From Nitrosovibrio sp. Nv17 (lineage in GTDB: Bacteria; Pseudomonadota; Gammaproteobacteria; Burkholderiales; Nitrosomonadaceae), in contig NZ_FPIQ01000001.1 of the NCBI RefSeq assembly GCF_900119085.1, positions 248,001 through 312,000 on the forward strand: DNA of 64,000 nt, given 5' to 3'. A model generated the notes under the pieces. The model was not told the DNA's origin and searched no databases. It saw nothing but the letters and a program-made list of their open reading frames with translations. Each line of letters starts with the position of its first letter. Within the stretch, counting starts at the first letter, position 1. The position numbers and the translations under genes are program-made. Positions 9,295-33,859 of this stretch are shown piece by piece.

Positions 9295-9310
9295 GCCGGT
9301 CACGCTCCCG

Positions 9311-16443: not shown

Positions 16444-17223
16444 ATGAATCGTGAGGCAGAGGAGTATTCCACCGCGTCACATGCCGCACGAGCGGACCGG
16501 CCTTTTGGCGATATTCCGCACGAAGAATTGCTGCTCGAACGCGAGCACTACGATATCCGGCTGGTGAGCACATCCCGGCAGCGCATCAAGACCGGGATAT
16601 TCATCGAGCGCATGTATTCATGCAGGGGCTACCACACCGATATCTGCGCGCTCCTGCAGAATCGTGCCAATCAGCTCACGCTCGAGGCCTCGGACCCCTG
16701 TCGAATCCTGGGAACATTGACGTTGGGCATGGATTCCGAATCAGGGCTCCTGGCTGATGAGCTCTATGGGCGGGAGATCAATTTCTTCCGTCGGCAGAAT
16801 CGAAAGGTTTGCGAGCTTTCCAGGCTTGCCATGGATCTCGAGCATGGTTCGAAAGAAATGCTGGCATCCCTGTTTCACCTTGCCTATATCCTGGGGCGCA
16901 ACATTAACAAGGCCACGGATCTGTTCATCGAGGTCAACCCCAGGCATGCCGGATTCTACCGGCGCATGCTCGGCCTGCGCCAGATTGGCGAGGAACGCAC
17001 CTGCCGGCGTGTCCAGGCGCCTGCGGTCCTGATGCACCTGGAACTGGACTACGTGGACGAGAAGATTGCCCAGCTGGCGGGACTCGCGGAGCTGTGTGAC
17101 CAGGGCGAGCGCTCGCTCTATCCCTACTTCTTCTCCAAGCGCGAAGAAGAAAAGGCGGCGAGCAAGGTGAGTGGATATCTCAGCAGGATCATGAGCGGGA
17201 CGCCAGCGGTTTTGTCCGATTGA
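16444..17223 (+). CDS. FeeM-like N-acyl amino acid synthase (GNAT-type acyltransferase)
   Basis: A 259-aa protein whose middle part (IRLVSTSRQRIKTGIFIERM... then LTLGMDSESGLLADELY and the VCELSRLAMD region) fits the FeeM-type N-acyl amino acid synthase family, GNAT-fold enzymes that join a long acyl chain from acyl carrier protein to an amino acid. No signal peptide or membrane segment. No clear ribosome site precedes ATG 16444, so the start is uncertain. It lies next to PEP-CTERM genes, as such synthases often do. Substrate specificity cannot be read from the sequence. Confidence 0.65.
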   Translation: MNREAEEYSTASHAARADRPFGDIPHEELLLEREHYDIRLVSTSRQRIKTGIFIERMYSCRGYHTDICALLQNRANQLTLEASDPCRILGTLTLGMDSESGLLADELYGREINFFRRQNRKVCELSRLAMDLEHGSKEMLASLFHLAYILGRNINKATDLFIEVNPRHAGFYRRMLGLRQIGEERTCRRVQAPAVLMHLELDYVDEKIAQLAGLAELCDQGERSLYPYFFSKREEEKAASKVSGYLSRIMSGTPAVLSD

Positions 17224-17311
17224 TCGACGCGGTCTTCGATCCGCTGTCGAAATTTTTTACACCCTGTCTTTCTTTCCTGTCTTCCTTTGCCTTCCCGGTT
17301 TCCAGAATAAA

Positions 17312-17335
17312 AAACGCCTGCTAAAGCAGGCGTTT
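17312..17335. terminator. Bidirectional intrinsic terminator
   Basis: AAACGCCTGC, loop TAAA and GCAGGCGTTT form a perfect 10-bp stem flanked by A- and T-rich sequence on both sides. It lies between the convergent FeeM-like gene and PEP-CTERM gene and can serve both. Confidence 0.88.
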
Positions 17336-17360
17336 AAAGGATATTATTATTTAGATTGAA

Positions 17361-18452
17361 TTATTTGTTCTTGCGGCTCCGGGTGGTGAATCCCATGCCC
17401 GCCAATCCCAATCCCAGCAGGGCCAGTGTTGCAGGTTCCGGCACGAAGCTGGATCCCGGCGCTGCGATCGTGCCCAAGGTGAGCCGGGCATCGGCACTAT
17501 TCAGGCCAGTGGCCCCTACGGTGGAAGCAATTACGAACGCCTCCGGATCAGCCAATTCTGCTGCTGTGCAATTCAGAGGATTGCAAATGGTGCTGGCAAA
17601 CTCCACACCGGCGAGAACTTCTGAAATCGTATTCAATGCAGCAAGTCCCGTTATCGAATCCAGCGCCCCCTGATTGGCAGTTCCGGTAATAACGTGTTGA
17701 TTGGATTGAATGATCAATCCTTCCCCGCTACCCGTAGGCGATGTCACCGTCAGCCAGTTCGCACCGGGATCGAGCGTCACAGGTGTGCCGTCCGTGTTGG
17801 TCAGCGGGCCACCGTTTTCCGGCAGGAACAGAATGTTGCCTTGTTGATCCGTGGCTGTTGTGGTGCTTACGCCCGATGTATTGACCTGTCCTGCCAACAA
17901 ATTGAAGGCGGAATAGCCAGTGCCAGGTGCAACATTATCGGGGGTACCCAGGTTGAAAACCGCGATCGGCGCGTTGAGCAGTGTGCCTGCACCATTAGTC
18001 GCCCCCCACGAAAGCGGGTCATTCAGGTTGTACGAGTTCGGATTGGAAATCGTGAAGAATGCCAGGCTGCCGCCGGTGAAAGTTGCCGTCGATACACCAG
18101 CAGCGTCCGGAGCGCTCGCGGTACCCGTAAGGGAGAAGACGCCGACGATCGCCAATCCGTTATAAGTGGCATCCGCCCCAGTACCGCCTTGTACCGTATA
18201 GCTGCCGAGCAGGTTGGAACCGACTACGCGAATTGCTCCAGCAGAGCCCGCGGCATTGCTGGTAACGTTGTTTGTGAAAGTGACACCGCGACCGGTGATG
18301 CCATTCACGTCGGTCACATTTGGCGTTGTGCCTCCCGCGGAATCGATTTGAAAATTAGCGAGGTCCGTGAAGAACGTGGCTGACGCCGGGGCAGCGCTGA
18401 AAAGCATGGCGACCGCGGCGCTGATTGTGGCTTTTTTAAAGAGACTGTTCAT
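17361..18452 (-). CDS. PEP-CTERM sorting-domain exported protein
   Basis: A 363-aa secreted protein. The N-terminus (MNSLFKKATISAAVAMLFSAAPASA) is a signal peptide with an AxA cleavage site. The C-terminus has VPEPATLALLGLGLAGMGF followed by basic TRSRKNK, the exosortase signal: PEP motif, hydrophobic helix and positive tail. The body is Gly/Asn/Thr-rich with no recognised domain and looks like a surface or exopolysaccharide-associated protein. Two Cys near residue 290 are the only pair. A GGGAG precedes the ATG, and a sigma-54 promoter lies 74 bases upstream. Base composition is lower in GC than the neighbours. Confidence 0.93.
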   Translation of the reverse strand: MNSLFKKATISAAVAMLFSAAPASATFFTDLANFQIDSAGGTTPNVTDVNGITGRGVTFTNNVTSNAAGSAGAIRVVGSNLLGSYTVQGGTGADATYNGLAIVGVFSLTGTASAPDAAGVSTATFTGGSLAFFTISNPNSYNLNDPLSWGATNGAGTLLNAPIAVFNLGTPDNVAPGTGYSAFNLLAGQVNTSGVSTTTATDQQGNILFLPENGGPLTNTDGTPVTLDPGANWLTVTSPTGSGEGLIIQSNQHVITGTANQGALDSITGLAALNTISEVLAGVEFASTICNPLNCTAAELADPEAFVIASTVGATGLNSADARLTLGTIAAPGSSFVPEPATLALLGLGLAGMGFTTRSRKNK

Positions 18453-18525
18453 TTCTTGTGGCTCCCAGGAGAGATAAAATCAATAAACCGGTATTTTTCG
18501 ACAACTAGCCTGACATGCTTCATAA

Positions 18526-18541
18526 AGCAATTCGCGTGCCA
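18526..18541 (-). promoter_or_regulatory. Near-perfect sigma-54 promoter of the PEP-CTERM gene
   Basis: On the minus strand TGGCACG-CGAA-TTGCT matches the RpoN consensus TGGCACG-N4-TTGCW at every defined position. Transcription would begin about 12 bases after the GC, giving a leader of about 65 nt to the PEP-CTERM ATG. RpoN with PrsK/PrsR is known to drive PEP-CTERM genes in other betaproteobacteria; here that is inferred. Confidence 0.88.
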
Positions 18542-18646
18542 TCTCTTGTTGTTGTATTATATATCAATGTTTAATAAGGAATATTTATGTAGTTCGGACG
18601 ATGAAACGGGGTGGGGCCGCCTTTTAACGAATTGGGCACGACCGGA

Positions 18647-18665
18647 TTGTAAAATATTCCGACAA
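18647..18665. promoter_or_regulatory. Imperfect inverted repeat, possible enhancer for the sigma-54 promoter
   Basis: TTGTAAAATATTCCGACAA has outer TTGT/ACAA arms and, read on the minus strand, starts with the same TTGTCG half-site as the palindromes at 15727 and 15793. Position about 120 bases upstream of the promoter suits an activator site. The match is weak. Confidence 0.3.
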
Positions 18666-19092
18666 CCATATTTTTTATCTGCATTTTCCTGAACCATTTG
18701 CGGGACTTTTTGCCCTAGTATAGGCACAATAGACCAGATTTACGGCAGGGGCAATGTTTGTAGATTACGACGATCGGAAGGGCATGGAGCCTTTTAGGAA
18801 GAAAACCGGGCAAAGCGTCGGATTTAGTTGCATCTGCATGATATGCGGTGCGTTGTCACGAGCTTGTGAATGAGGGTGAATAAACCAGACCGATCGGACG
18901 GATTACCCTGAAGCTCGCTCGAACGGAAGCGAATGCCCTTAAAAGGAAATGCACCCATGGGGCAGGGGTGATGCCGTGACGCTGCGCGTTGGTTGATCCC
19001 GCAAATGTACCGGTAAAGCCGACCGTAAACAATATTCTAGACATACATCGCTTATCATCATGTCTCTTTGGTCGATGGGAGAGGTTGTAAGA

Positions 19093-21894
19093 ATGGATCG
19101 GTGGCGTTTCATGTATGTGTTAAACAACCGAGGCAAGGTGGTGGCCGCGTCGCTGGCAGCGGTCGCCCTGCTGCTTTTTTTCCCGGCGTGCGACAGGGTC
19201 GGCGGCCAGACTTTCGATCAGCACGTGCAGAATGCGAAGGTTTTTCAGGACAAGGGGGAACTGCGCGCAAGCATCATCGAGCTCAAGAATGCACTGCAGC
19301 AGAATCCCGACAGCGCGGAAGCGCGGCTGCTGCTTGGGGAGATATATGTCGCGGTACGCGACGGGGTCAGCGCCGAAAAGGAATTGTCGCGGGCGAGAAA
19401 ACTGGGAGCCGATGGCGAATCCAGCAAAATAATGCTGGGTCAGGCGCTGCTCCTGCAGGAAAGCTACACCCGGATCCTGGAAGAGATCGAACCGGATCCC
19501 GGGGCATCCCCCAAGGATGTGGCCAGGATACAGCAGCTTCGTGCGGAAGCTCAATTCGGCCTGGGGCATCCGGAGCAGGCCTGCGACCTGCTGGAACAAT
19601 CCGTGCGAGTCGACTCGACCTATGTCCCGGTTTATTGGGGGTTGGCCCGGTGTGCCGCCATCAGGGAAGATTTCCAGTATGCCAGGACGCTGCTTGAGCG
19701 CGCACTGGAACTCGAAGCCCGGAATGCCGAGACCTGGATATGGCTGGGCAAGCTGGCGCAGATGACGAGCGATTTCAAGGCGGCCGAGGCGGCCTTCTCC
19801 AGTGCGCTCGAGATCTCTCAGGATCATGTCGAGGCTTATCAGAACCTGGTCTTCCTGTACTTAGCAACGGGTGAGTACGACAAGGCACGGACACAACTCG
19901 GCGCAGCGCGCAAGTTCGCGCCCAAGAATCTCAGGCTCTTGTATCTGCAGGGGTTGTTGAATTTCCGGGAGAAAAATTATACGGAGGCCAGGGACAACCT
20001 GCTGGAAGTGCTGAAAAGTGCTCCGGATGACACGCCCAGCTTGCTGCTTTCCGGGGTAGTTTTTCATGAACTGGGCAGCTTCCAGCAGGCGATCCAGAAT
20101 CTCGGGAAGGTGCTGGATCGATTCCCCGATAACGAGCACGCTCGCAAAGCCCTGGCTGCCGCGTTGCTGAAAACGGGGCAATCCGACCGTGCGCTGACTA
20201 CCCTGAAGCCCCTACTCACAGCGGGTAGTCAGAATACGGACGTATGGGTTCTGGCCAGCGAGGCGGCGCTCCAGGGGGGGCACCCTGCCCAGGCCAGGGA
20301 CTATCTTCAAAAGGCGGCGGCGGACGATCCGAAGAATACCCGTTTGCGCACCGCCCTGGGCGTGGGCCTGATGATGGCCGGTGACGCGATTCGCGGCGTG
20401 GCGGAGTTGGAGTCGGTCGTCGCGGAGGATGCGGAGCAGACGACCGCGGAAACACTGCTGATCCTGAGCTACATGGACAAGCGGGAATATGACAAGGCGC
20501 TCGCCGCCCTTGCCAGGCTGGAAAAGAAGCACCCCGACGATCCTACCGTGCACAATTTCCGTGGCGCGATCTACGCGGCCAGGAAGGATATCGCCAATGC
20601 ACGCAGGAGCTTAGAACGGGCCCTGGCGATACAGCCCAATTACAAAGCCGCGCTGACCAATCTGGCGAAACTGGAGCTGCAGGAAAACAATCTGGCCGCT
20701 GCCCGCAAGCATTTCGAGGCTGTCCTAGTGATGGATAAAAGCGATGTTGAGTCCATGCTGGCCTTGATGCGACTGGAGAGCGACGAGGGGAAAAAAATTA
20801 CCTGGCTCAAGCGGGCGGTCGAAGCCAATCCTGCTGTGCTGGAACCCAGGATTCTCCTGGCCCAGTATTACCTGAGAAAGCAGCAGCCGGCCCAGGCATT
20901 GGCGCTCGCCCAGGAGGGGGTGCGCCTGAATCCCGCCAGCCGCGATGCGGTCGACCTGCTCGGCACGACGCAATGGGAAAATGGAGAAAAGGACAAGGCA
21001 CTGGCGACGTTTACTCAGCTTGCCACCGCGATGCCGCCCGAGTCCGCCGTCGCCTACTACAAGCTGGCATCGGTACAGGCGGCCATGACGGATAGCGACA
21101 CGACCCGGGCATCCCTGACCAAGGCGTTGAAGCTCAAGCCCGACTACCTGCCTGCGCAAACGGCGCTCGTCTGGCTGGAGTACAATGCCGGCCGGCCGGC
21201 GGAGGCGCTGAAGCTCGCGCAGAGAATCCAGAAGCAGTCCCCCGGCCTTGCCTCCGGCTTCATGCTCGAAGCCAAGGTTCTGACCGCCCAGGAAAAGCAC
21301 GCGGAAGCGGCGGCGGCCTACGAAAAGGCCCTGGCGATCGAAAACAGTGGCCCGGTGGCCATCGAAGTCCATCGGGCACGGATTCTTGCGGGCAATCCAC
21401 AGAAGGCCGATGCCGACCTGCTGCAATGGCTGAAGAGCCACGACAGCCCGGATGCGCGATACCATCTTGCGCACGCTTACCTGGCTTCGGGACGTCACAA
21501 GCTGGCGATTGAGCAGTATTCGATTCTCTTGAAGAAAAATCCTGAGAACGTCGCGGTACTGAACAATCTTGCCGGGCTGTATCACCAGGAAAAGAATCCC
21601 GAGGCGCTGACATGGGCCGAGAAGGCCTACAAGCTCAGCCCGGGCTCGCCCGTCGTCGCCGATACCCTGGGCTGGATCCTGACGGAACAGGGTGAGGTCG
21701 CCCGAGGCGTGGAATTGCTGCACAAGGCGGCGACCGGCGCGCCTGCCGACCTGGAGATCGGATACCATTACGCGGTGGCCCTGGCCAAGGCGGGAGAAAA
21801 GGTCAAGGCACGCCGGCAGCTGGAGAAATTGCTGGCGGCCAACGGCAAGTTTCCCCAGAAGGCAGAGGCCAGAACGCTGCTCGATCGGCTGTGA
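19093..21894 (+). CDS. prsT: PEP-CTERM system TPR-repeat lipoprotein (PrsT-like)
   Basis: A 933-aa lipoprotein built almost wholly of tetratricopeptide repeats. The N-terminus has a hydrophobic stretch ending FFPAC, a lipobox with Cys at about residue 33, so it should be lipidated and face the periplasm. Repeats such as ASIIELKNALQQNPDSAEARLLLGEIY run to the C-terminus. Length and layout match the PEP-CTERM-associated TPR family PrsT, found in exopolysaccharide/exosortase loci. ATG 19093 has GAGG at 19081-19084; an upstream ATG at 19060 is less likely. It is isolated here from any exosortase gene. Confidence 0.88.
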   Translation: MDRWRFMYVLNNRGKVVAASLAAVALLLFFPACDRVGGQTFDQHVQNAKVFQDKGELRASIIELKNALQQNPDSAEARLLLGEIYVAVRDGVSAEKELSRARKLGADGESSKIMLGQALLLQESYTRILEEIEPDPGASPKDVARIQQLRAEAQFGLGHPEQACDLLEQSVRVDSTYVPVYWGLARCAAIREDFQYARTLLERALELEARNAETWIWLGKLAQMTSDFKAAEAAFSSALEISQDHVEAYQNLVFLYLATGEYDKARTQLGAARKFAPKNLRLLYLQGLLNFREKNYTEARDNLLEVLKSAPDDTPSLLLSGVVFHELGSFQQAIQNLGKVLDRFPDNEHARKALAAALLKTGQSDRALTTLKPLLTAGSQNTDVWVLASEAALQGGHPAQARDYLQKAAADDPKNTRLRTALGVGLMMAGDAIRGVAELESVVAEDAEQTTAETLLILSYMDKREYDKALAALARLEKKHPDDPTVHNFRGAIYAARKDIANARRSLERALAIQPNYKAALTNLAKLELQENNLAAARKHFEAVLVMDKSDVESMLALMRLESDEGKKITWLKRAVEANPAVLEPRILLAQYYLRKQQPAQALALAQEGVRLNPASRDAVDLLGTTQWENGEKDKALATFTQLATAMPPESAVAYYKLASVQAAMTDSDTTRASLTKALKLKPDYLPAQTALVWLEYNAGRPAEALKLAQRIQKQSPGLASGFMLEAKVLTAQEKHAEAAAAYEKALAIENSGPVAIEVHRARILAGNPQKADADLLQWLKSHDSPDARYHLAHAYLASGRHKLAIEQYSILLKKNPENVAVLNNLAGLYHQEKNPEALTWAEKAYKLSPGSPVVADTLGWILTEQGEVARGVELLHKAATGAPADLEIGYHYAVALAKAGEKVKARRQLEKLLAANGKFPQKAEARTLLDRL

Positions 21895-21942
21895 CGGCTT
21901 GTCGTCCGGGATGGGCCGGCCGTGTTGGATGCGGATGCATGC

Positions 21943-23172
21943 TCATGCTCCGTGGCGCTTCCCGTGCAGGATTTCCGCGGTGATCGCCCGGAAACGCCGG
22001 CTGGCGTCGGTCTGGGCCAGGATACGGCTGATCCGTCCGGCGGCTTCGGCGTAGGTGGTGTTTTCCAGCACTTCGGTCACCGTCTTGTCCAGGTCTGCGA
22101 GGCAATTCCTGGTCGCGCGCAGCGCGATGCCGGATCCGGAGCGCTCCACCGCCTTCATGTTCAATAGCTGGTCCATATTGGAGCACAGGCCGATGACCGG
22201 TACCCCGTGGGCAAGCGCCCAATAGGTGGTCAGGCTGCCGCCGTTGCTGATGATCAACCGGGATCGCCGGCTTGCGCTCTCGATGGAGAGGTAATCGATG
22301 ATGAAGGCATTCGAGGGCGGATCGGCAATCACGATCTTCCCGGCGGTGGCCACGATGATCGTTATCGGGAGCCTTGACAGTGTGACAAGAACCGAAGGCA
22401 GGAGGCCGGCCTGCCCCGAGCTTCCCAGCGTCATGAACACCACTGGTCTGTCCGGGGGCAGATGGGTCCACCAGGCCGGCAAGGGAGTGCATGTCGACCA
22501 GAATACCGGACCAAGGTAATAATGGTGGGACGGCAGGGCACGTGTGGGTACAATCTCGGGAATGTCCGCGTATAGCGTATAGTTGCCCCAGGTGTAGACG
22601 TTTCTGAGATCGGGCTGCAAGGGCGGCAGCCCGTAACGGCGGCGCACCTGATTCAGGGGTCTTGCATGCAGGGCAAATATGACGGGCCTGGCGGTGTCGA
22701 ATATCGCTTGTGCGATACCGACCCCGAGGAAGCGGGTGATGGGCAAGTCAGGCACGGGGTATTCCGTCCCTGCGAATGGACTCCAGTAGGCGTTGACCAT
22801 CGAGGCATATGGTACGTTGCGCAGTGGCGCACTGACGGCCAGGGACAATCTGAAGTCGCCAACCACCAGATCCGGCTTGACGTCGTCCAGCAGCACCAGG
22901 TCCTCCTCGACGTAGCGGGCAAGAGTTTCCGCACTGTAGAGCCGCTCGCCCCGGGCAAGGGCGCGCTCGAATGCGGCGGAAGGGATGGACCATATGGGAC
23001 GGAACGCACATCCTGACAATGACTCCAGCGCCAGATAGCGGGGATCCGATGCGACCACCACTTCATATTCGGATGGATCGAGCGAGCGAGCCAACACGGC
23101 GATCCGGGCAAAATGTGCAAGCGTGACCGCTTCGGCGACAAGGAGGATGACGGGCTTGGCTGGCGTTTTCAA
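21943..23172 (-). CDS. UGT/MGT-type glycosyltransferase (GT1-like)
   Basis: A 409-aa GT-B glycosyltransferase of the UDP-glucuronosyl/macrolide type. The N-terminal half has the Rossmann-like acceptor domain, and the C-terminal half carries VVFMTLGSSGQAG and the donor-binding stretch SNGGSLTTYWALAHGVPVI with the Gly-rich/HGVP motif. Such enzymes add sugars to small lipophilic acceptors rather than to polysaccharide. It sits between prsT and the ABC transporter, on the opposite strand to both, so a role in decorating the locus product is plausible but inferred. Confidence 0.82.
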   Translation of the reverse strand: MKTPAKPVILLVAEAVTLAHFARIAVLARSLDPSEYEVVVASDPRYLALESLSGCAFRPIWSIPSAAFERALARGERLYSAETLARYVEEDLVLLDDVKPDLVVGDFRLSLAVSAPLRNVPYASMVNAYWSPFAGTEYPVPDLPITRFLGVGIAQAIFDTARPVIFALHARPLNQVRRRYGLPPLQPDLRNVYTWGNYTLYADIPEIVPTRALPSHHYYLGPVFWSTCTPLPAWWTHLPPDRPVVFMTLGSSGQAGLLPSVLVTLSRLPITIIVATAGKIVIADPPSNAFIIDYLSIESASRRSRLIISNGGSLTTYWALAHGVPVIGLCSNMDQLLNMKAVERSGSGIALRATRNCLADLDKTVTEVLENTTYAEAAGRISRILAQTDASRRFRAITAEILHGKRHGA

Positions 23173-23195
23173 TTACGCTGGTTCACATGAGGTCA

Positions 23196-23213
23196 TTCTC
23201 ATCGGGATGAGAA
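23196..23213. promoter_or_regulatory. 18-bp inverted repeat in a divergent promoter region
   Basis: TTCTCATC-GG-GATGAGAA has perfect 8-bp arms and lies in the 143-base gap between the divergent glycosyltransferase and ABC-permease genes. It looks like a repressor or activator operator; the regulator is unknown. Confidence 0.5.
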
Positions 23214-23315
23214 GGGCGGGTCGTGTCATGAAGGCCTTTCCCGGTCAGACGGAACCGTCACTCGATTGACCGGCACGCTGTTCCAGCCAATCTTACCGGT
23301 GCTCGCAAGGATGTC

Positions 23316-24554: not shown

Positions 24555-24594
24555 GGCATCGATTGAATACGGCCACCTGAGTACGGATCTCCGC

Positions 24595-25806
24595 ATGCTC
24601 AAGCTTGCCTTTCGCAACATCTTCCGGAATCGCTTGCGCACTGCCCTGACGCTGGCGGCCATCACCACCGGTGTGGTGGCCATCATCATCAGTGGCGGTT
24701 TCGTCGAGGATGTGTTCGTGCAGCTGCGCGAATCGACGATTCGTTCACGTATCGGGCACGTCCAGGTGTTCAGGTACGGATACAACGAATACGGGGGGCG
24801 CGAGCCTTCGCGCTACATGATCACGCAGCCCGCTCCCGTGGCGGATGCCATAGGGCATATCCCGCATGTGCGTACCGTCATGGCGCGTCTGAATTTTTCC
24901 GGATTGATCAACAACGGCCGCGCCAACCTGTCCATTGTGGGCGAAGGCATCGAACCGGACAAGGAGGCCCAGCTGGGAACCGGCATGGCCATCATCGCCG
25001 GCCGTGCATTGTCCGGCAACGATACGTTCGGGGCGGTGATCGGCGAGGGCGTTGCAACAGCCATGCATCTGCGGCCCGGCAGCCAGATAACCCTGATGGT
25101 GAATACCCTGGAGGGTGCGTTGAATACGCTGGAGTGCGAAGTCGTCGGGGTATTCCGAACATTCTCCAAGGAATACGACGACCGTGCCATCCGTATTTCA
25201 TTGGTCTCCGCCCAGGAGCTTCTCTTTACCCAGTCGGTGCACAACATGGTCGTGCTGCTGGATGATACCCGCACCACGGATACCGTGACGCAAGCCCTTA
25301 AGACGCAACTGGAATCGCTGGGCCATGAGATCAAGTCCTGGGACGAGCTGGCCGATTTCTATCAGAAAACGGAAGCGCTCTATCGGCGCCAGCTCGGGGC
25401 GCTGCAGTTCATCGTCCTCGTCATGCTGGTTCTGAGCGTGACCAGCACCATCAATATGGTGGTGCATGAGCGCACCGGGGAGTTCGGAACCCTGCTTGCG
25501 CTGGGGCTGCGTCAGCGTCAGATCTTCAAGCTCGTAATGATCGAGAACACGCTGCTGGGACTGATCGGCAGCATGTTCGGCGTGCTGCTGGGGACTGCGC
25601 TTGCGGGAGCGATATCGAACATCGGCATTGCCATGCCGCCGCCGCCCGGCTCGAACATCGGCTATACCGCCACGATACAACTGGCCCCCTGGATACTCGG
25701 AACGGCGGCCACGATAGGGATTCTGGCGGCGATCATGGCTGCCCTGCTGCCGGCTCGCCGCGCCTCGCGCCTAGTGATCGTGAATGCGTTGCGCCAGAAT
25801 ATCTGA
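24595..25806 (+). CDS. ABC transporter permease, FtsX/MacB/LolCE family (second)
   Basis: A 403-aa paralogue of the preceding permease, with the same one-plus-three membrane layout and the HERTGEFGTLLALGLRQRQI loop near residue 295. Both carry a similar pattern of REST(I)R/HS(QSGHIQV or RIGHVQV) after the first membrane segment and MPPPPG before the last segments, showing that they arose by duplication. The frame is open upstream into the first permease, but ATG 24595 gives the family start MLKLAFRNIFRNRLR. It lies 40 bases after the first permease. Together they should form a heterodimer. Confidence 0.87.
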   Translation: MLKLAFRNIFRNRLRTALTLAAITTGVVAIIISGGFVEDVFVQLRESTIRSRIGHVQVFRYGYNEYGGREPSRYMITQPAPVADAIGHIPHVRTVMARLNFSGLINNGRANLSIVGEGIEPDKEAQLGTGMAIIAGRALSGNDTFGAVIGEGVATAMHLRPGSQITLMVNTLEGALNTLECEVVGVFRTFSKEYDDRAIRISLVSAQELLFTQSVHNMVVLLDDTRTTDTVTQALKTQLESLGHEIKSWDELADFYQKTEALYRRQLGALQFIVLVMLVLSVTSTINMVVHERTGEFGTLLALGLRQRQIFKLVMIENTLLGLIGSMFGVLLGTALAGAISNIGIAMPPPPGSNIGYTATIQLAPWILGTAATIGILAAIMAALLPARRASRLVIVNALRQNI

Positions 25807-25972
25807 TGGGCAAGGTGGTCCTGCATGCGTGCGTCGCCGGCCATGGAGGGTCTTTTCCAGGCATCCGATCGGGCCACTTTGGGCGGCATGACGGGCCGGA
25901 CGTCGAATGCATGTGCAATCGGCCGCTGTCCGTGGTCTTAGGGGCAATATGGCTTCCAGAGGGAGTATGGTC

Positions 25973-26686
25973 ATGAATGAGAGGCATGACACCGGATCGT
26001 CGGCAGCGATGGTCGAGGTTCGCGCGGTCAGCAAAGTGTATTCGCTCGGGAAGCAGTCGGTCATGGCTCTGGATGCGGTCTCGCTTACCGTGGGCCGAGG
26101 CGAGTTCATGGCGCTAGCGGGCCCCTCCGGCAGCGGCAAATCGACCTTGCTCAATTTGATCGGCTGCATCGATACCCCTACGTCGGGAAGCATCCTGATC
26201 GCAGGGCAGGATATCGGCGGCAGGACACCCGATGAGCTTTCCGACCTGCGATTGAACACCCTGGGCTTCGTTTTCCAGACCTTCAACCTGCTGCCGGTCC
26301 TGTCTGCATGGGAGAACGTCGAATACCCCTTGCTGCAAAAGGCCGGCATGTCCAAGGAAACACGGGATGAGCGCGTACGGCACTATCTGGGCGTGGTTGG
26401 ACTGGAGCACTACACGCACCATCGTCCCAATGAACTGAGCGGCGGGCAGCGTCAGCGGGTGGCCATCGCGCGTGCGCTCGCCACCCGTCCCAGCATCGTA
26501 CTTGCGGATGAGCCAACCGCCAATCTCGATCACAAGACCGGCGCAGGCATACTGAACCTGATGAAGTCGCTCAATCAGGAAGAGGGGACCACGTTCATCT
26601 TCTCGACCCATGATCCGCGGGTCATGGAGATGGCAAGCCGGCTGGTCAGGCTGGCCGATGGCCAGATCATCGGCCAGGGAATGTGA
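25973..26686 (+). CDS. ABC transporter ATP-binding protein (LolD/MacB-like)
   Basis: A 237-aa ATPase with Walker A GPSGSGKST, Q-loop region LGFVFQTFNLLPVLSAWENV, signature LSGGQRQRVAIARAL, Walker B IVLADEPTANLDH and the switch His in STHDPRV. The Q-loop stretch and length place it in the LolD/MacB/FtsE group. ATG 25973 is chosen because GAGGGAG lies 7 bases upstream; two further in-frame ATGs upstream are less likely. It should energise the two preceding permeases. Confidence 0.92.
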   Translation: MNERHDTGSSAAMVEVRAVSKVYSLGKQSVMALDAVSLTVGRGEFMALAGPSGSGKSTLLNLIGCIDTPTSGSILIAGQDIGGRTPDELSDLRLNTLGFVFQTFNLLPVLSAWENVEYPLLQKAGMSKETRDERVRHYLGVVGLEHYTHHRPNELSGGQRQRVAIARALATRPSIVLADEPTANLDHKTGAGILNLMKSLNQEEGTTFIFSTHDPRVMEMASRLVRLADGQIIGQGM

Positions 26687-26736
26687 AGGAAGGGGGGCGT
26701 GACTGCCATCGCTTGCGCCGCATCTTCCGCGTGATT

Positions 26737-27810
26737 CTATTTTTCGCGCTCAACCAGGCGTTCCAGGGACAGGCGCAAGGAGCGGCTTGCTGCTGGGGGG
26801 CCATGGCCGATGCGCCCAAGGAAAACGACCCGCTCGACCAGGGAATCGCCCATCAGTCGAGACAGGCGTGCGGACAGTTCGGTCGCGGTATCCATCATGC
26901 CGGGCAGACGGCTGAACGTCCGCTGCTCGCGCACGTAACGGCCGAAGATCAAAGGGGTCATCTCGGGCTGCAGCTGCAATCCCAGGTGCGTCGCCGTCAG
27001 CCAGAAACGCTGGACGGCCCGTCCGGCGGCGACGTAGTCGTCGATCGTCTGCGGCGCGCGCGCGGACAGGATGGCAAAATGGGCTGCACAGAACAGGCCG
27101 GGCAGCAGATCCATTTCGATGCGGGGAACGAGATGCCCGGACAGGTAGGTGTTAAAGAAAGCGACACGTTGCCAGCTTGCCATGACCCAACGCATCAGCC
27201 TGAGGGTCATGGCATCCAGTCCGAGGGCCTGATCCGGTACCTTGTCGTCGCTGTATCGTGATCGCCATTGAATGATGTCCCGGTGTACGGTGTAGGCTTC
27301 CGGCAAGGTCAGCCGAAGCTTGGCATTGTCGAACATCAGCCTGGCCAATTGCCGCCGCTGTGCCCGGGTATCGAACCATCTGATGGAGCAGGCGTTTCCT
27401 GCGGCATGTTGCAGCGCCGTTTTCTGTGCTGCGGTCAGCGGCGTGGTGCGCATGGGCCGGCGCTGTACCGAGCGTGTCCTGATGCAGGGAAACAGCGGAT
27501 CGGGCGGTTGATCTTGGGGATTCAGCGTCGCGACATACCTGGGGTGCGTATCGGACAATTCGGTGCAGCGCCTGAATTCGGCGTGCATGCCGTGCGCGCT
27601 GGCGGCGATCGCAAGGGTCTCCAGCAATGCGCCCAGCGCCATCTGGCTGGGGTGGCCATCGAGATCGTAGACGCAGTGGTCGCGGGTGTCGAATGCATTG
27701 ATAGCCAGATGATGGTCATCGATGACTTCAAATCTCCATGGCTGGGTGTTGTCCCCGCTCGGCGCCCAACGGGCGGACTCCAGAATATCCGCGAGAAGTC
27801 GGGGGATCAT
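26737..27810 (-). CDS. Nitroreductase-like flavoprotein (partner of the adjacent ThiF protein)
   Basis: A 357-aa protein of the nitroreductase superfamily: ARWAPSGDNTQPWRFEV at residues 13-29 resembles the FMN-binding N-terminus of this fold, and the rest is longer than simple nitroreductases (about 200 aa), as in proteins related to the C-terminal half of mycobacterial MoeY/Rv1355c. The true substrate is unknown. It starts 3 bases after the ThiF gene stop, on the same strand, so the two are translationally close and probably work together. It converges on the ABC transporter operon with a 50-base gap. Confidence 0.75.
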   Translation of the reverse strand: MIPRLLADILESARWAPSGDNTQPWRFEVIDDHHLAINAFDTRDHCVYDLDGHPSQMALGALLETLAIAASAHGMHAEFRRCTELSDTHPRYVATLNPQDQPPDPLFPCIRTRSVQRRPMRTTPLTAAQKTALQHAAGNACSIRWFDTRAQRRQLARLMFDNAKLRLTLPEAYTVHRDIIQWRSRYSDDKVPDQALGLDAMTLRLMRWVMASWQRVAFFNTYLSGHLVPRIEMDLLPGLFCAAHFAILSARAPQTIDDYVAAGRAVQRFWLTATHLGLQLQPEMTPLIFGRYVREQRTFSRLPGMMDTATELSARLSRLMGDSLVERVVFLGRIGHGPPAASRSLRLSLERLVEREK

Positions 27811-27813
27811 GGC

Positions 27814-28671
27814 CTACAGTCCCAGTCTGCGTTTCGCCAGGGCGATGGCGAGACGCTGGAGAGGATGGCGATTGCCGCCGGGTCTCCAGGTCGATGCCAG
27901 CTTGTTGCGATAGGCGTCGAAATGATAGCCCCTGGGTGCCGCCCGGATCGGGCCGCGCTTCAGGAGGATCTTCAGGACTTCGGTTGCGGCCACGCCGGCG
28001 CAGAGCTGACAGGCCATGATGGTCGATGGGCCTTTACGGTTGGCGAGATCGACCGTCGATGGGTCCGCCAGATAGCCCATCTGCAGGCGGGCGGGTGCAA
28101 GCCCCATGAGAAAACGCACGGGTTCCTCGCTTGCAGGGCCGTCATTGAGGCGGAAATAGTCACTGAAACTCATGCCGCCCGGCAGGAAATTGAGAACTGC
28201 CGCCCCCATGCCCAGCGGGGCGGCCGTGACACCGGGAATACCCTTGCGCAGGCACGCCGCAAAGACCTGCTGGCGAATCTGCAGGGCAAAGAAATCCAGG
28301 CCGTCGACGTACACGTCCACGTTTTCCAGAAACTCTTCCAGGTTGTCAGGGGTGACTCCGGTTGCAAACTCCCTGATTTCGATCCCGGGATTGATATCGT
28401 GAGCCTGCTGGATCATGACTTCGAGCTTGCTCCGACCCAGACTGCTCACAGTCGCACCGGCCTGACGATTGAAGTTGACCAGATCGAAGGTATCGAAATC
28501 GGCCAGGTGGAATTTTTCGATGCCCAGCCGGCAGAGTGTCAGAAGATGGATGCCTCCCACTCCTCCAAGGCCGGCGATGGCTACCCTTCCATGACGCAGT
28601 TGCGTTTGCTCCTGCCGGGTCAGCCAGCCGACATTTCTGGAAAAAGCCTCGTCATAGTTGAAGGACGGCAT
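27814..28671 (-). CDS. ThiF/HesA/E1-like adenylyltransferase
   Basis: A 285-aa E1-superfamily protein. The nucleotide-binding GLGGVGG is at residues 34-40 and the DFDTFDLVNFNRQ stretch follows, as in enzymes that adenylate a carboxylate such as the C-terminus of a sulfur carrier. Only one CxxC (CQLC) is seen, so the zinc site of MoeB/ThiF looks incomplete. ATG 28671 (MPSFNYDEAFSRN) matches the start of close families; the frame is open to a GTG at 28773. No sulfur-carrier gene is next to it, so the acceptor may be unusual. Paired with the nitroreductase-like gene. Confidence 0.8.
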   Translation of the reverse strand: MPSFNYDEAFSRNVGWLTRQEQTQLRHGRVAIAGLGGVGGIHLLTLCRLGIEKFHLADFDTFDLVNFNRQAGATVSSLGRSKLEVMIQQAHDINPGIEIREFATGVTPDNLEEFLENVDVYVDGLDFFALQIRQQVFAACLRKGIPGVTAAPLGMGAAVLNFLPGGMSFSDYFRLNDGPASEEPVRFLMGLAPARLQMGYLADPSTVDLANRKGPSTIMACQLCAGVAATEVLKILLKRGPIRAAPRGYHFDAYRNKLASTWRPGGNRHPLQRLAIALAKRRLGL

Positions 28672-28909
28672 GCGATCCGGGAATCTGTTAAGCGCCGATC
28701 TCGGCTGGAAAAGGGGCCTGGAGACGGACGCAGCGACGACAGCGTGCGGCGGAGAGGCGGGCGAATGAAGCACGACTGCATCGAAGGCCCGTACGTCCTT
28801 CCCGTGCCTCGCTCAACCATTGGATTCCAAATACGCGAGCATGAAAGCTACCGGGGAATATACCTCCAACCCCATCAGGGGTCAATGCGGCACTCGATGC
28901 CCGCAGATA

Positions 28910-30451
28910 TCAGAAGGAATAGCGCAATTCACTGTAGACACGGTCGCTATGGTCGAAGCGCCCAAACAGGCCGGTGGGCCTCCCGCCGAAAATGTCGGCA
29001 CCCAGCGCCCAGCGCCAGTCCTTTTGAAAATTCCAGGACAACCGGGGCCGGAACATCCAGTCGCTATGATTCAGGCTGTGAATCAGCAAGGCCTGCGCCT
29101 CCAGCTTGTTCCAGATCTTGCCGTTGAGCAGGATGCTGGCGCCGCTTTCCCTTTTGTCCGCGATGAGATCGGGATCGTGCCCGAAATAGACGCGTTGAAA
29201 GAATTGCAGATTCAGGCGGGTTTCGGCCGGAAGATTGAAATCGAGGCCCAGCACGTAGTCCAGGGTATTCTGCCTGGCCAGGCCATCGACGGCGGCCGGG
29301 CGAGTGACATTGAACTTGCGGCCATCCGTATAGATCAACTCGCCCTTCAGCACGATCGACCCGAAGTCCTTGGCGAAGGTTGCGCCGACCTGGTCGATCT
29401 TGTCGTGGCGTGCCTGGAACACGGGGGGGGCAGCGGGTCCGCTGACGCGATAGAACGTGGGAGACGCATCGAGGCTGTGGTAATAGAATCCCGACACGTC
29501 CCAGCCGTCTTTCAGGTATGACAGACGAAGCCCATAGTTCGAGTTGCCGATATTGCGCCCCGATCGATCTTCGGGAAGGTAGCCGGCCCCTCGCAGCGGG
29601 CCGGAATAATAGTCGGCGCCCGGCCTGCCGATTTCATCGAGCGTTGCCACGGGGATCCACAATACTTCGGCATGCAGGTCGTCTTTCGTATATTCGGTAC
29701 GCATGGCCCATTGGGGAATGCGCATGATATCGAACGAAGGGAGGATGAATTCACGCATATCCCTGGCCGACACCACGTCCGCGAAGAACAGCCCGACCAT
29801 TTCACCCCATATGACGTGCTGGCGGCCCAGCCGGAAATCGAAATCACCTGCGGAGATGTCCAGATAGTTCTCGCGCAGGAAGAAGTCGTAGCGCTGATCC
29901 CGCCGAACCTCGGATGGATAGAAGCCTGACAGATCGTAGGCGGCGTCATAGTCGAAGCGGCCGCTTATCTTCCACTTCACATTCGCGCCGAACTGCCCGG
30001 TGCGGGAAAGCTCGGTACGCAGTTTTCCTTTGGAAAAATGTTCCGGGCGACTGTAGGTTCCTGCAATCTCAAGCTGGGAAAATCCTTTCCAGCCGGTTGT
30101 CAACTCGTTCCAGATGAGCGCGCCGGATGACGCGGATTCGTCGGGGCCGGAGGGCGGCGGGGAGGTGTCGAGGATATTTCCGTTTCCCCCGCCGCGCTGC
30201 ACCGTCATCAGACTGCCCCCCGTATTCCCGGCTGCCGCATGAATCGGGGACAGCAGGGAGGGCCCGTTGCCGACTGCGGCATGCCCGACCGCCCTGGTGA
30301 CCGGCGAGCCCAATGGCGTTTGCGCTTCATATGGGTGAGAGTAGGGCGGATGGCCGGTCCCGTCGGCCAGACCGTGGGACGACAGGGAGAGCAGTCCCGC
30401 AATCAGTACCGAGCCTCCGAGTTCGTATGGGTATGTCTCACGCCGTGCCAT
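28910..30451 (-). CDS. Outer-membrane beta-barrel protein, DUF1302-like
   Basis: A 513-aa protein ending in YSELRYSF, the terminal-Phe signal of outer-membrane barrels, with alternating amphipathic strands (for example FDFRLGRQHVIWGEMVGLFF, a motif of DUF1302-type porin-like proteins). The N-terminus has a hydrophobic signal-like segment (VLIAGLLSLSSHGLADG) and then about 80 residues of Gly/Pro/Ser/His-rich, probably disordered sequence before the barrel. Such proteins often sit beside LolA-like and RND/ABC export genes. It diverges from the LolA-like gene; the 226-base gap shows no clear sigma-54 site. Confidence 0.8.
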   Translation of the reverse strand: MARRETYPYELGGSVLIAGLLSLSSHGLADGTGHPPYSHPYEAQTPLGSPVTRAVGHAAVGNGPSLLSPIHAAAGNTGGSLMTVQRGGGNGNILDTSPPPSGPDESASSGALIWNELTTGWKGFSQLEIAGTYSRPEHFSKGKLRTELSRTGQFGANVKWKISGRFDYDAAYDLSGFYPSEVRRDQRYDFFLRENYLDISAGDFDFRLGRQHVIWGEMVGLFFADVVSARDMREFILPSFDIMRIPQWAMRTEYTKDDLHAEVLWIPVATLDEIGRPGADYYSGPLRGAGYLPEDRSGRNIGNSNYGLRLSYLKDGWDVSGFYYHSLDASPTFYRVSGPAAPPVFQARHDKIDQVGATFAKDFGSIVLKGELIYTDGRKFNVTRPAAVDGLARQNTLDYVLGLDFNLPAETRLNLQFFQRVYFGHDPDLIADKRESGASILLNGKIWNKLEAQALLIHSLNHSDWMFRPRLSWNFQKDWRWALGADIFGGRPTGLFGRFDHSDRVYSELRYSF

Positions 30452-30677
30452 GATGTGTGCCTGGATTTCCTTTGATGCTCCGCCGAATCAAGCCTTCGCC
30501 GTTGCTTTACCCATTGCAGAGTGCTTTCACTGGGACTATGATGGAAACCCAGCCGATTTGTCTGCAGAGGGGTTTCCGGCCATGTCACATGTGCATGCGG
30601 CTCCCGCATGCCATGAAGATCATCCCAGTCCTGAAATGTGCGATTCCGTGAGGAATCGCCACCTGTAGCGAGGAGCC

Positions 30678-31439
30678 ATGATGAACCAGTCCTTCCTGTA
30701 TCGGTTGATGGTAGCCTGCCTCTTCCTGGCCTCGGTGCCTTCCACGGTGGCCAGAGCGGAGGAGGCGATATCCGCGCAAGGCATCCTCGAGAACGCCGAT
30801 CAGATACGCTTCCCGCGGGAAAGCTTCCAGGTCGATGTCAACGTCACCTCCACTGCGCCTGACCAGGCGGCGGACATCCGCAAATACCGGGTCTTGTCCA
30901 AGGGCAATGAAAACAGCGTCGTGATGACTGTCGAGCCTGCCTCGGATCGTGGCCAGGCGATATTGATGAAGGGTCGTGATCTGTGGATATTCCTTCCGGA
31001 TGTTTCTCAACCGGTACGTCTGTCATTATCTCAGAGACTGACCGGCCAGGTGGCAAATGGCGACTTGGCCCGCGCCAATTTTACAGGCGACTACAATGCG
31101 ACGATCCTGCGCACGGACACCATAGACGACGAGAAATTCTACGTATTGGAACTGACCGGTGTCGACCGGGGAGTCACCTATCACAAGGTTTTATACTGGA
31201 TACGCCAAACGAACCATTGGCCATACCGTGCCGAATTTTACTCGCTTTCCGATCGTCTGCTCAAAACCGCTTATTATGAAGACTTCAAGTTGCTCCTCGG
31301 CAAACACAGGCCTACACGCCTCGTCATGGAAGATGCATTGCGGAAGGGTGAAAAATCCGTACTGGAATATTCCGAAATGAAGCTGCAGGATTTGCCGGAT
31401 AAAATCTTTACCAAGAACTACCTGAAGAAACTCGAGTAG
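30678..31439 (+). CDS. Outer-membrane lipoprotein-sorting (LolA-like) periplasmic protein
   Basis: A 253-aa exported protein. MMNQSFLYRLMVACLFLASVPSTVARA is a signal peptide, and the mature part fits the LolA/LolB-like open barrel family annotated as outer-membrane lipoprotein-sorting protein (large beta sheet, for example KGRDLWIFLPDVSQPVRL and HYKVLYWIRQ-type strands). The fold binds lipids in transit across the periplasm. GAGGAG lies just before the ATG. It should partner the LolCDE-like transporter and the DUF1302-like barrel nearby, though this is inferred from context. Confidence 0.8.
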   Translation: MMNQSFLYRLMVACLFLASVPSTVARAEEAISAQGILENADQIRFPRESFQVDVNVTSTAPDQAADIRKYRVLSKGNENSVVMTVEPASDRGQAILMKGRDLWIFLPDVSQPVRLSLSQRLTGQVANGDLARANFTGDYNATILRTDTIDDEKFYVLELTGVDRGVTYHKVLYWIRQTNHWPYRAEFYSLSDRLLKTAYYEDFKLLLGKHRPTRLVMEDALRKGEKSVLEYSEMKLQDLPDKIFTKNYLKKLE

Positions 31440-31554
31440 ACCCCTATTGAATCGTCGGCAACGGCCGTAATACCCTGCAACGAGTACCACCTACCTAAAA
31501 ACTCGAATATCCCTATTGAAGCCTTCCGCATCTCGATTTGCCAAGGAGATCGAA

Positions 31555-32313
31555 ATGACTTCTGGTGAAGCTTTTACCCTGGGTAACGCTTTCAGGCAGT
31601 ACTTTGAAATCGTGCCCGCAGTTTCCGATGCCTTGAAAGACGAGGTCTATCGGATACGGCATCAGGTCTACTGCGAGGATCTGAAATTCGAGCCAACGCG
31701 ACCGGATGGCCGTGAGGTCGATGAACATGATCCGCATTCGCTGCATATTCTGATATGCAGCAGCAAAACGAAAAGGTTCGTCGGTTGCACGCGCATCATT
31801 CGTCCCCGGCCGGGCAATCCGCACGACCTTCTGCCTTTCGAGAAGGCGTGTGCCGCGACGCTGGACCGATCCGTCGTCGATCCCGCAAAACTAGCGCGTT
31901 GCAGCATTGGGGAAGTGTCACGCCTGGCTGTGGTGGCCGATTACCGCCGACGCAAGGGCGAGTCGAACGTGGCAATGGGGATTTCGGAGGCGGATTTCGG
32001 CACGCCGCTCCAGCCCCGTTTTCCATTCATCCCGATTGGCTTGTACCTTGCCACGACCGAGCTGGCACGATTGAACGGGGTCGAGACGGTATTTGTCCTG
32101 ACGGAGGAACGGCTTGCGAGCCATTTCGACAAGCTGGGGTTCAATCTCCAGTATATCGGCCGCCCGATCGAGCACCATGGCGTACGTGTTCCCTCGATGA
32201 TGAGCGTGAGCAGCGTCATACGCAACATGCGAACCAACCTGCAGTCACTCTACCGCACCATTGCGGCGGACATAGCAAGGGGCCTGGAGCAGAAGGAGGC
32301 GGAAGAGCCATGA
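31555..32313 (+). CDS. PEP-CTERM/exosortase system-associated acyltransferase
   Basis: A 252-aa GNAT-like protein. YRIRHQVYCEDLKFEP (about residues 32-47), CTRIIRPRP and EVSRLAVVADYRRR match the PEP-CTERM/exosortase-associated acyltransferase family (TIGR03694), related to autoinducer synthases and N-acyl amino acid synthases. No signal peptide. ATG 31555 has AAGGAG at 31543-31548. It lies 115 bases after the LolA-like gene on the same strand. The acyl acceptor is unknown. A second acyl enzyme, the FeeM-like protein, is 15 kb upstream. Confidence 0.85.
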   Translation: MTSGEAFTLGNAFRQYFEIVPAVSDALKDEVYRIRHQVYCEDLKFEPTRPDGREVDEHDPHSLHILICSSKTKRFVGCTRIIRPRPGNPHDLLPFEKACAATLDRSVVDPAKLARCSIGEVSRLAVVADYRRRKGESNVAMGISEADFGTPLQPRFPFIPIGLYLATTELARLNGVETVFVLTEERLASHFDKLGFNLQYIGRPIEHHGVRVPSMMSVSSVIRNMRTNLQSLYRTIAADIARGLEQKEAEEP

Positions 32314-33828: not shown

Positions 33829-33859
33829 GGAAGTCGGGGCTGGAGGGGGCGGCGTCAGG

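Follow-up and report, generated by a model that had tools for sequence, protein, structure and literature searches.

A candidate locus for N-acyl amino acid lipid synthesis and Lol-like export in Nitrosovibrio sp. Nv17, and its association with exosortase

Gene content of the locus

We analyzed a 64,000-nucleotide stretch of DNA from Nitrosovibrio sp. Nv17 (hereafter, the window), in which a cluster at positions 16444–32313 had been predicted to carry acyltransferases, an E1, a nitroreductase, a glycosyltransferase, an ABC transporter, a LolA-like protein, a barrel, a PEP-CTERM protein and PrsT. Family models confirmed that every one of these gene classes was present at the expected coordinates. 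The features are listed below, with model scores in brackets.

16444..17223, + strand: FeeM-type N-acyl amino acid synthase (acyltransferase) (PF21926, E 8e-48)
17361..18452, - strand: PEP-CTERM sorting-signal protein (PF07589, E 2e-7; TIGR02595)
18526..18541, - strand: sigma-54 (-24/-12) box, exact, upstream of the PEP-CTERM gene (pattern match)
19060..21894, + strand: PrsT, XrtA/PEP-CTERM system TPR protein (TIGR02917, 795 bits, cut-off 312)
21943..23172, - strand: UGT/macrolide-type (EryCIII/UGT-like) glycosyltransferase (PF06722, PF00201)
23316..24554, + strand: permease A, FtsX/LolC-E-like (PF02687, PF12704; TIGR02212, 109 bits, below the cut-off of 362)
~24595..25806, + strand: permease B, FtsX/LolC-E-like (PF12704, PF02687; TIGR02212, 100 bits, below the cut-off of 362)
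25907..26686, + strand: LolD-like ABC ATPase (PF00005; TIGR02211, 223 bits, below the cut-off of 308)
26737..27810, - strand: Acg-type flavin-dependent oxidase of the nitroreductase superfamily, TyzC/TrzS-like (NF005901, NF047509)
27814..28773, - strand: ThiF/E1-like adenylating enzyme, a predicted cyclase (NF006077, 448 bits, cut-off 266)
28910..30451, - strand: DUF1302 outer-membrane barrel (PF06980, E 1e-15; last residue F)
30678..31439, + strand: LolA-like periplasmic carrier (PF17131, E 6e-51; Sec-type N-terminus by eye)
31516..32313, + strand: exosortase-associated acyltransferase, probable second N-acyl amino acid synthase (TIGR03694, 260 bits, cut-off 112; PF21926, 29.7 bits, cut-off 27)

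From our reading of the translation, permease B probably starts near 24595 and not at the mechanical open reading frame start of 24451, because the latter overlaps permease A. The genes of the locus lie on both strands and form several transcription units. The E1 and nitroreductase genes are 3 bases apart, and the distance from the FeeM gene to the nitroreductase gene is about 9.5 kb. The sigma-54 box before the PEP-CTERM gene was the sole exact pattern match in the window and sits at roughly the position reported for such boxes ahead of PEP-CTERM genes (a mean of 71 nt from the start codon; Haft 2006). Matches with two or fewer mismatches numbered 27 against 32.9 expected, which is chance level, and one with two mismatches lay about 560 bases before the FeeM gene. 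With a single exact box and overall matches at chance, a sigma-54 regulon shared by the whole cluster was unsupported.

For comparison, we surveyed 300 genomes of the order, counting the window's own genome. Matches to the LolA-like protein were split by identity into a marker subfamily (54% or more) and distant homologues (39% or less), with one half-match on a second contig (G092) left out; genomes with the module are those with the high-identity protein. The mapping of permeases, ATPase and barrel covered the loci that we fetched.

The candidate Lol-like export module

The Lol-like module has five genes, which encode two FtsX/LolC-E-type permeases, an ATPase, a carrier resembling LolA and a DUF1302 barrel. 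Both permeases were nearest to lolCE, yet far under its cut-off, and the ATPase scored under the LolD cut-off. The carrier matched the orphan structure 3BUU (E 1.5e-124 by profile, 70% identity in the structure match), and its Foldseek matches were LolA-superfamily and LolA structures, indicating a LolA fold. The DUF1302 protein was predicted to form a beta-barrel in a model of moderate quality (mean pLDDT 70), for which the 50 listed Foldseek porin matches had TM-scores of 0.37–0.42 by query.

The Lol lipoprotein route (LolCDE-LolA-LolB) has in common with this module a LolD-like ATPase, two LolC/E-like permeases and a LolA-fold carrier. It differs in that the cluster has a DUF1302 barrel and no LolB among its annotated genes and in that the cargo here is probably a small lipid. 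In Castellaniella, a DUF1302 protein and a LolA-superfamily periplasmic protein likewise accompany an Ame-type monoterpene efflux transporter, whose inner-membrane part is of the RND type, whereas that of the present module is ABC/FtsX (PMC6394551).

In 28 out of 31 places, a high-identity LolA-like gene had an E1, FeeM or TIGR03694 gene no more than 20 kb away, whereas 0 out of 41 distant LolA-like homologues, used as a control, had such a neighbor; the other three marker genes had none of these neighbors within that distance. All five module genes occurred together in 24 out of 28 fetched loci with the high-identity subfamily in a non-overlapping map. A threshold count gave 25 out of 28 complete modules, but in that count the two homologous permease queries can match one gene. 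Gene order varied across related loci, and the gene set stayed together. These counts, with the permeases and barrel mapped in the fetched loci, contradict for the LolA-like marker the case in which transporter and barrel mostly stand beside unrelated genes.

In 16 out of 18 genomes, including the window's own, the best glycosyltransferase homologue had an E1, FeeM or high-identity LolA-like gene no farther than 13 kb away (two weak second matches, in G173 and G273, with 29–30% identity, were left out). The high-identity LolA-like subfamily was absent from 30 of the 51 E1 genomes. Separately, we observed an MMPL-type protein and another PF17131-type protein instead in five related E1 loci (Pfam was run on one of each).

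The module could be a resistance or detoxification pump, or a system for lipid or lipoprotein maintenance, that merely neighbors acyl-amino-acid genes. The MacB-like domains of the permeases, the Castellaniella efflux system and the three unlinked marker genes are consistent with such a role; co-localization at 28 out of 31 places against none in the control, and a gene set kept together despite its varying order, argue against it. We consider this role unlikely and prefer the export of an acylated product made by the neighboring enzymes.

Acyltransferases, ThiF/E1 and nitroreductase

In alignment, E124 of the window's FeeM protein stood opposite the Glu of the AEVVQFA stretch in the FeeM structure 2G0B; this Glu is chain position 96, which we took as the published Glu95 with a one-residue numbering offset (PMC4897644). 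Direct reading placed an E..SRLA motif at residue 124 of the FeeM protein and residue 133 of the TIGR03694 protein, whose global alignment with each other (23%) was too divergent for use. With a wider first-match pattern, the catalytic-Glu place held Glu in 72 out of 81 FeeM homologues (Asp in six, neither in three) and in 28 out of 30 TIGR03694-like homologues (Asp in one, none in one), although this pattern miscounts a few: the printed segments give eight FeeM homologues with Asp where the pattern gives six.

Three successive stretches of the NCBIfam model PRK14852 (989 positions) matched the FeeM, ThiF and nitroreductase proteins. Against PRK14851, the ThiF protein scored 319 bits, below the whole-protein cut-off. 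The nitroreductase matched NF005901 (the Rv1355c family; E 7e-36) and NF047509 (Acg; E 3e-35), in both cases below the cut-offs, and its best PDB match was the Acg structure 2YMV. ThiF and nitroreductase formed a single open frame in 11 out of 49 related loci; with the window protein as query, the nitroreductase was undetected in 10 out of 49 E1 loci. The E1 gene was within 10 kb of a FeeM or TIGR03694 gene in 44 out of 51 E1 genomes. A model spanning all three enzymes, the single frames and the co-localization measured against a control place the predicted grouping beyond chance, and the neighborhood comparison revealed that acyltransferase, E1, nitroreductase, ABC, LolA-like and barrel genes co-occur and co-localize across many families.

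The adenylation residues of the E1 protein (the glycine-rich loop, R103, K116, D157 and D160) were invariant in 12 out of 12 aligned proteins, with D157 and D160 aligning to the DCTDN stretch of ThiF; its acidic ATP-site residue may be equivalent to TrzS D217. R166 and Q281 of the nitroreductase were invariant in 15 out of 15 proteins and, going by profile offset, may fall at roughly the places of TrzS R540 and Q651.

A FeeM-type acyltransferase, a ThiF/E1 protein and an Acg-type nitroreductase constitute the acyl-oxazolone enzyme set of OxzAB (Pseudoalteromonas rubra), TyzABC and TrzAS (mycobacteria, Rhodococcus), which share a FeeM/AHL-synthase-fold acyltransferase, a ThiF cyclase and an Acg-type flavin oxidase, adjacent or fused (PMC10404671, PMC12856293). 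The same set has been implicated in N-acyl-dehydrotyrosines, whose clusters (for the kyonggic acids of Massilia, the thalassotalic acids and the stieleriacines) likewise group NAS, ThiF and nitroreductase genes; Massilia umbonata, with candidate clusters that are without ThiF and nitroreductase genes, made only saturated compounds (PMC12479983). Acyl-oxazolones were found in cell pellets and not in supernatants (PMC10404671), and tryptazolones were mainly intracellular, whereas acyl-tryptophan was mainly outside cells (PMC12856293).

The statement in the original prediction that no described pathway joins these parts was therefore wrong for the acyltransferase–ThiF–nitroreductase half (PMC10404671, PMC12856293, PMC12479983). 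Compared at the level of protein families, the present locus differs from OxzAB, TyzABC and TrzAS in having the Lol-like module, the glycosyltransferase, the TIGR03694 acyltransferase and the exosortase tie, and tyz, unlike the present locus, is flanked by mmpL9. Transporter, exosortase, PEP-CTERM, LolA and outer membrane go unmentioned in the main text of PMC12479983.

An acyl product might also be exported here with no oxazolones being made, if ThiF coupled an amine to the N-acyl amino acid while some other substrate served the nitroreductase. ThiF/E1 enzymes do perform conjugations and thiolations as well. Moreover, oxazolones were not seen for homologous clusters of Massilia, Thalassotalea and Stieleria (PMC12479983). 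Pointing the other way, the closest family models include ThiF–nitroreductase fusions, among them the Rv1355c family, and Rv1355c is the tryptazolone maker TrzS (PMC12856293). We judge conjugation to be a rather improbable account and retain the oxazolone-type route.

Exosortase association and proposed function

Exosortase was present in 50 out of 51 E1 genomes and in 31 out of 31 genomes with the LolA-like marker, compared with 115 out of 300 overall. Four genomes with weak E1 matches (G086, G165, G289 and G298; E 1e-21 to 1e-25, 33% identity or less) were left out; only G298 among them has an exosortase, and including all four gives 51 out of 55. The window's own genome has at least two PF09721 matches on other contigs, one of them in a 597-residue frame, among the matches listed. 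XrtA-type counts, for which we took those of the matches listed whose exosortase frame has 490 residues or more, are lower bounds: at least 30 out of 31 marker genomes had such a frame. In at least 15 out of 51 genomes, an exosortase was no farther than 25 kb from the E1 gene. Because the genomes are related, genome-level p-values overstate these associations, and the family-level table and a one-genome-per-family sample are the safer tests. The neighborhood recurred across 13 families when followed by the LolA-like marker and across 22 when followed by E1, and the one-genome-per-family sample of the class agreed on exosortase (8 out of 8 versus 31 out of 91 overall; 7 out of 7 without G367, a weak match that we kept). 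PrsT is tied less tightly to the cluster, with PrsT-like ORFs in 19 out of 60 loci in the clustering of loci.

A link between the acyltransferases and the PEP-CTERM/exosortase system has been in print since 2011 (Craig et al., cited in PMC4897644 and PMC11072679); the present locus shares this tie and adds the E1, nitroreductase, glycosyltransferase and export module. We found no literature uniting the oxazolone enzyme set, or the export module, with exosortase in a search that most subscription journals lay outside.

Among the 115 exosortase genomes, the LolA-like marker occurred in 31 out of 69 with an acyltransferase (FeeM or TIGR03694) and in 0 out of 46 without one, which leads us to favor an acyl product over PEP-CTERM proteins as the cargo. 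Where acyltransferase and exosortase were both present, the marker occurred in 21 out of 49 genomes with E1 and in 10 out of 20 without it. We thus rejected E1 as a requirement for the module; it may carry the unmodified N-acyl amino acid, or it may be linked to the acyltransferases alone.

Proteins with a lipid anchor are transported by Lol systems, and the module might carry lipid-attached, exosortase-processed PEP-CTERM proteins to the outer membrane, the acyltransferases making the lipid anchor. The exosortases and XrtA-type frames of the marker genomes, and the proximity of E1 to exosortase, fit such a cargo. However, the marker occurs in just 31 out of 115 exosortase genomes, and none of the 46 that have neither a FeeM nor a TIGR03694 match carries it, so the sorting of PEP-CTERM proteins can as a rule do without the module. 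PEP-CTERM proteins are thereby weakened as the general cargo, and we regard this proposal as quite improbable. A coincidental neighborhood, which genes on both strands in several transcription units might suggest, is already contradicted by the recurrence across 13 and 22 families and the empty control, and can be set aside as exceedingly improbable.

We favor, with moderate confidence, a reading in which an N-acyl amino acid lipid is synthesized by an oxazolone-type route encoded in the locus and then exported in a Lol-like manner. Counting against it are the independence of the module from E1, the 30 E1 genomes without the marker subfamily, the E1 loci in which the nitroreductase was undetected, the FeeM homologues with Asp for the catalytic Glu, the mainly cellular location of the published oxazolones, the homologous clusters from which none was seen, and the moderate barrel model with its low-scoring porin matches. 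In this reading, the FeeM acyltransferase, the TIGR03694 acyltransferase or both would acylate an aromatic amino acid with a fatty acyl group; the ThiF/E1 protein would activate the carboxylate with ATP and close the ring to an oxazolone; and the Acg-type flavoenzyme would desaturate the alpha-beta bond with O2. The product would be an acyl-oxazolone or, once hydrolyzed, an N-acyl-dehydroamino acid, to which the glycosyltransferase may attach a sugar. The two permeases and the ATPase would then take the lipid out of the inner membrane, and the LolA-like protein would ferry it over the periplasm and hand it to, or through, the outer-membrane barrel, in cells running an exosortase/PEP-CTERM surface program. 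That an acylated, possibly glycosylated amino acid is made and moved outward, as originally predicted, stands as the best reading; the chemistry of this copy, its substrate and product, glycosylation, cargo and direction of transport are what we infer alongside the observed gene content, family membership, co-localization, co-occurrence and predicted folds.

A bolder proposal, which we hold to be a long shot, gives the N-acyl(-dehydro)amino acid lipid a function within the exosortase system itself: as a surface lipid brought there by its own Lol-like route, it would hold exosortase-processed PEP-CTERM proteins in the exopolysaccharide matrix, either as their anchor or through a covalent bond. 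A matrix role is open to immediate testing, since a methanotroph loses its normal polysaccharide band upon disruption of what is described as an N-acyl amino acid synthase gene of the exosortase system (PMC11072679).

The locus would tie acyl-oxazolones and N-acyl-dehydroamino acids, a recent lipid class of unsettled role, to an exopolysaccharide-associated protein-sorting system, and it names a candidate exporter for them. It also places the LolA-like structure 3BUU, solved but so far unexplained, in a functional setting and suggests what activity the TIGR03694 acyltransferases may have. If the lipid does anchor or join PEP-CTERM proteins, it would be a candidate exosortase acceptor molecule in the marker-bearing subset of genomes.

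Gene content and known enzyme set

The locus at 16444-32313 comprises twelve genes on both strands. Assigning families by Pfam and NCBIfam, we obtained the same gene list as the original prediction, which had proposed an acyl-conjugate synthesis and export locus tied to PEP-CTERM genes. Features beside and within it are as follows.

14823-15605, inositol-monophosphatase-family gene flanking the locus on the low-coordinate side
18526-18541, (-) strand, exact sigma-54 box about 74 bases upstream of the PEP-CTERM gene start
32377-33930, RNase G, flanking the locus on the high-coordinate side
35458-36624, (+) strand, fatty acid desaturase of the DesA family, whose helical tail resembles an ISL3 transposase (NF049918, NF049919)

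A sigma-54 box ahead of PEP-CTERM genes was already described in 2006 (Haft 2006). G+C content was about 0.55 at window positions 16001-20000 (FeeM, the PEP-CTERM gene and the start of PrsT) and 0.56-0.69 in other 2-kb windows. The genome (2.84 Mb, 56 contigs) has two exosortase matches, both outside the locus. It also carries one more gene of the FeeM type and one more for the exosortase-associated acyltransferase TIGR03694.

The enzyme half of the locus is an already known set. By profile ranges, the NCBIfam one-protein model PRK14852 covers FeeM (86-212), the ThiF/E1-like adenylating enzyme (E1; 312-586) and the nitroreductase (621-780), and the PRK14851 and Rv1355c family models join the last two. 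The locus shares its acyltransferase, ThiF and flavin oxidase gene types with the acyl-oxazolone pathways TyzABC and TrzAS. The Mycobacterium route to C12 tyrazolone begins with acylation of tyrosine by TyzA, followed by ATP-dependent ring closure by the ThiF protein TyzB and desaturation by the flavin oxidase TyzC (PMC10404671); tryptazolones are the product of TrzAS (PMC12856293). The set is present in mycobacteria, outside the class. The same three gene types accompany the N-acyl-dehydrotyrosines of Massilia, Thalassotalea and Stieleria, and the candidate clusters of one Massilia, M. umbonata, which makes saturated compounds only, are without ThiF and nitroreductase genes (PMC12479983).

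Strong E1 matches were present in 51 of the 300 genomes of the order, with FeeM or TIGR03694 within 10 kb of E1 in 44. In the window, TIGR03694 is the acyltransferase near E1, FeeM lies about 10.6 kb away, and 3 bases separate E1 from the nitroreductase. Of 49 related E1 loci, 11 had both in a single open frame, 28 had the nitroreductase-like match as a separate one in the locus (some of these weak), and 10 had none that could be detected. Adenylation residues were invariant across 12 aligned E1 proteins. The best solved relatives were ThiF, t6A dehydratase and MoeB; t6A dehydratase is itself an ATP-dependent cyclising enzyme. FeeM-type proteins of eight loci (L038, L039, L040, L098, L102, L103, L104 and L155) have Asp for the expected catalytic Glu (e.g. 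CDITRLA). Loci L084 and L085 hold two different nitroreductase-like genes, E1 about 10 kb from FeeM, and an ATPase 46-47% identical to the window's.

The window's TIGR03694 protein has an E..SRLA motif in common with FeeM and matches the FeeM model weakly, over the cut-off. In fetched loci of Thauera, Azoarcus, Aromatoleum and others, its homologue lies within about 3.5 kb of E1, and FeeM was not detectable in the fetched flanks. Disrupting a Methylomonas LW13 gene described as an N-acyl amino acid synthase of the exosortase system abolished the normal polysaccharide band and gradient growth, and complementation brought back both (PMC11072679).

The Lol-like, putative export module

The putative export half consists of two FtsX/LolC-E-like permeases, a LolD-like ATPase, a LolA-like carrier and a DUF1302 barrel. 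From genomes of the order we retrieved 60 loci (20 kb at most), 49 at E1 matches and 11 at further LolA-like or FeeM matches. The high-identity LolA-like protein (54% identity and above), our marker for the module, occurred in 30 genomes besides the window's and fell within the fetched locus for 28. All five module genes were present in 24 of these 28 loci on a non-overlapping map. The exceptions were L063, with one permease at the stretch edge; L089 and L092, both short contigs with a single permease, the barrel being absent from L092 as well; and L097, where the fetched stretch held no permease. The set is kept together while gene order varies. In 28 of 31 genomes the marker had E1, FeeM or TIGR03694 no more than 20 kb away (the unlinked three being G111, G224 and G254), compared with 0 of 41 for the control, the low-identity group (39% and below) of the same search.

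The window's LolA-like protein (30678-31439, + strand) gave a predicted model with pLDDT 82 and is 70% identical to 3BUU; further matches were Porphyromonas LolA3, a Vibrio LolA-superfamily protein, a DUF1329 protein and LolA structures. The solved entry 3BUU, Nitrosomonas NE2245, is named only "uncharacterised LolA-superfamily protein". The barrel model (pLDDT 70, residues 1-115 at low confidence) had only loose matches to general porins.

In five E1 loci (L045, L046, L048, L055 and L083; Pfam run on one protein of each cluster), the ABC module is replaced by an MMPL-type protein together with a further LolA-like protein of the PF17131 type (at 7710-10043 and 11370-12227 in L045). These recall mmpL9, which adjoins tyz (PMC10404671), and suggest that different exporters serve one product class.

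Named-genome E1 loci were the best 80 of at least 505 candidates, with flanks of up to 10 kb; some records are not independent of the order-set genomes (e.g. L108/G062 and L175/G103). Among these 80, the nearest relatives of the window's E1 included those of the betaproteobacteria Nitrotoga, Nitrosovibrio and Thiobacillus, and other loci came from Nitrosospira, Sulfuriferula, Janthinobacterium, Duganella, Rugamonas, Thauera, Azoarcus and others. All five module genes stood inside the fetched flanks in 13 of the 80. Neither window acyltransferase was detected by the tblastn map in the fetched flanks of Janthinobacterium and Duganella loci; an NAS gene does stand at that place in their relative Massilia kyonggiensis (PMC12479983), so the map misses divergent acyltransferases. 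RNase G or IMPase/RsmE genes are kept at the edge of Nitrosovibrio and Nitrosospira loci (L100, L101, L105, L110 and L139), suggesting that the chromosomal place is old.

Tie to exosortase and predicted cargo

The tie of the whole system to exosortase is strong. Exosortase was present in 115 of the 300 genomes, in 50 of the 51 with strong E1 matches (51 of 55 with four weak matches included) and in all 31 with the LolA-like marker, each of which also had a FeeM or TIGR03694 match. By family, exosortase families made up 21 of 22 E1 families and 13 of 13 marker families, against 32 of 51 overall. In a class sample of 91 further genomes, one per family, E1 occurred in eight, all with exosortase, compared with 31 of 91 overall (p = 9e-5). 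Exosortase lay within 25 kb of E1 in at least 15 of the 51 genomes.

Among exosortase genomes, the marker occurred in 31 of 69 with FeeM or TIGR03694 and 0 of 46 without. PEP-CTERM proteins as general cargo would predict a module following exosortase; it follows the acyltransferase instead, which weakens this candidate. We rejected E1 as a requirement for the module, since among genomes with acyltransferase and exosortase the marker was found in 21 of 49 with E1 and 10 of 20 without. Because the module follows the acyltransferase independently of E1, it most likely carries products of the N-acyl amino acid family, for which ring closure and desaturation would be optional. Homologues of the glycosyltransferase are rare, occurring at E 1e-20 in 18 of 300 genomes, and in 16 of these 18 the gene lay no more than 13 kb from E1, FeeM or the LolA-like marker (14 of 18 for E1 or FeeM alone); the earlier suggestion that the product is perhaps glycosylated therefore gains weight.

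The locus is a genuine and conserved system of several parts: one half is a known pathway and the other a Lol-like partner module, with chemistry and cargo predicted from sequence. Our literature search, in a library with few subscription journals, found no description of this module and no paper joining it or the oxazolone set to exosortase. The enzyme set and the acyltransferase-exosortase link (Craig et al. 2011, cited by PMC4897644 and PMC11072679) were already known; within that search, the Lol-like partner module and its tie to exosortase appear to be new.
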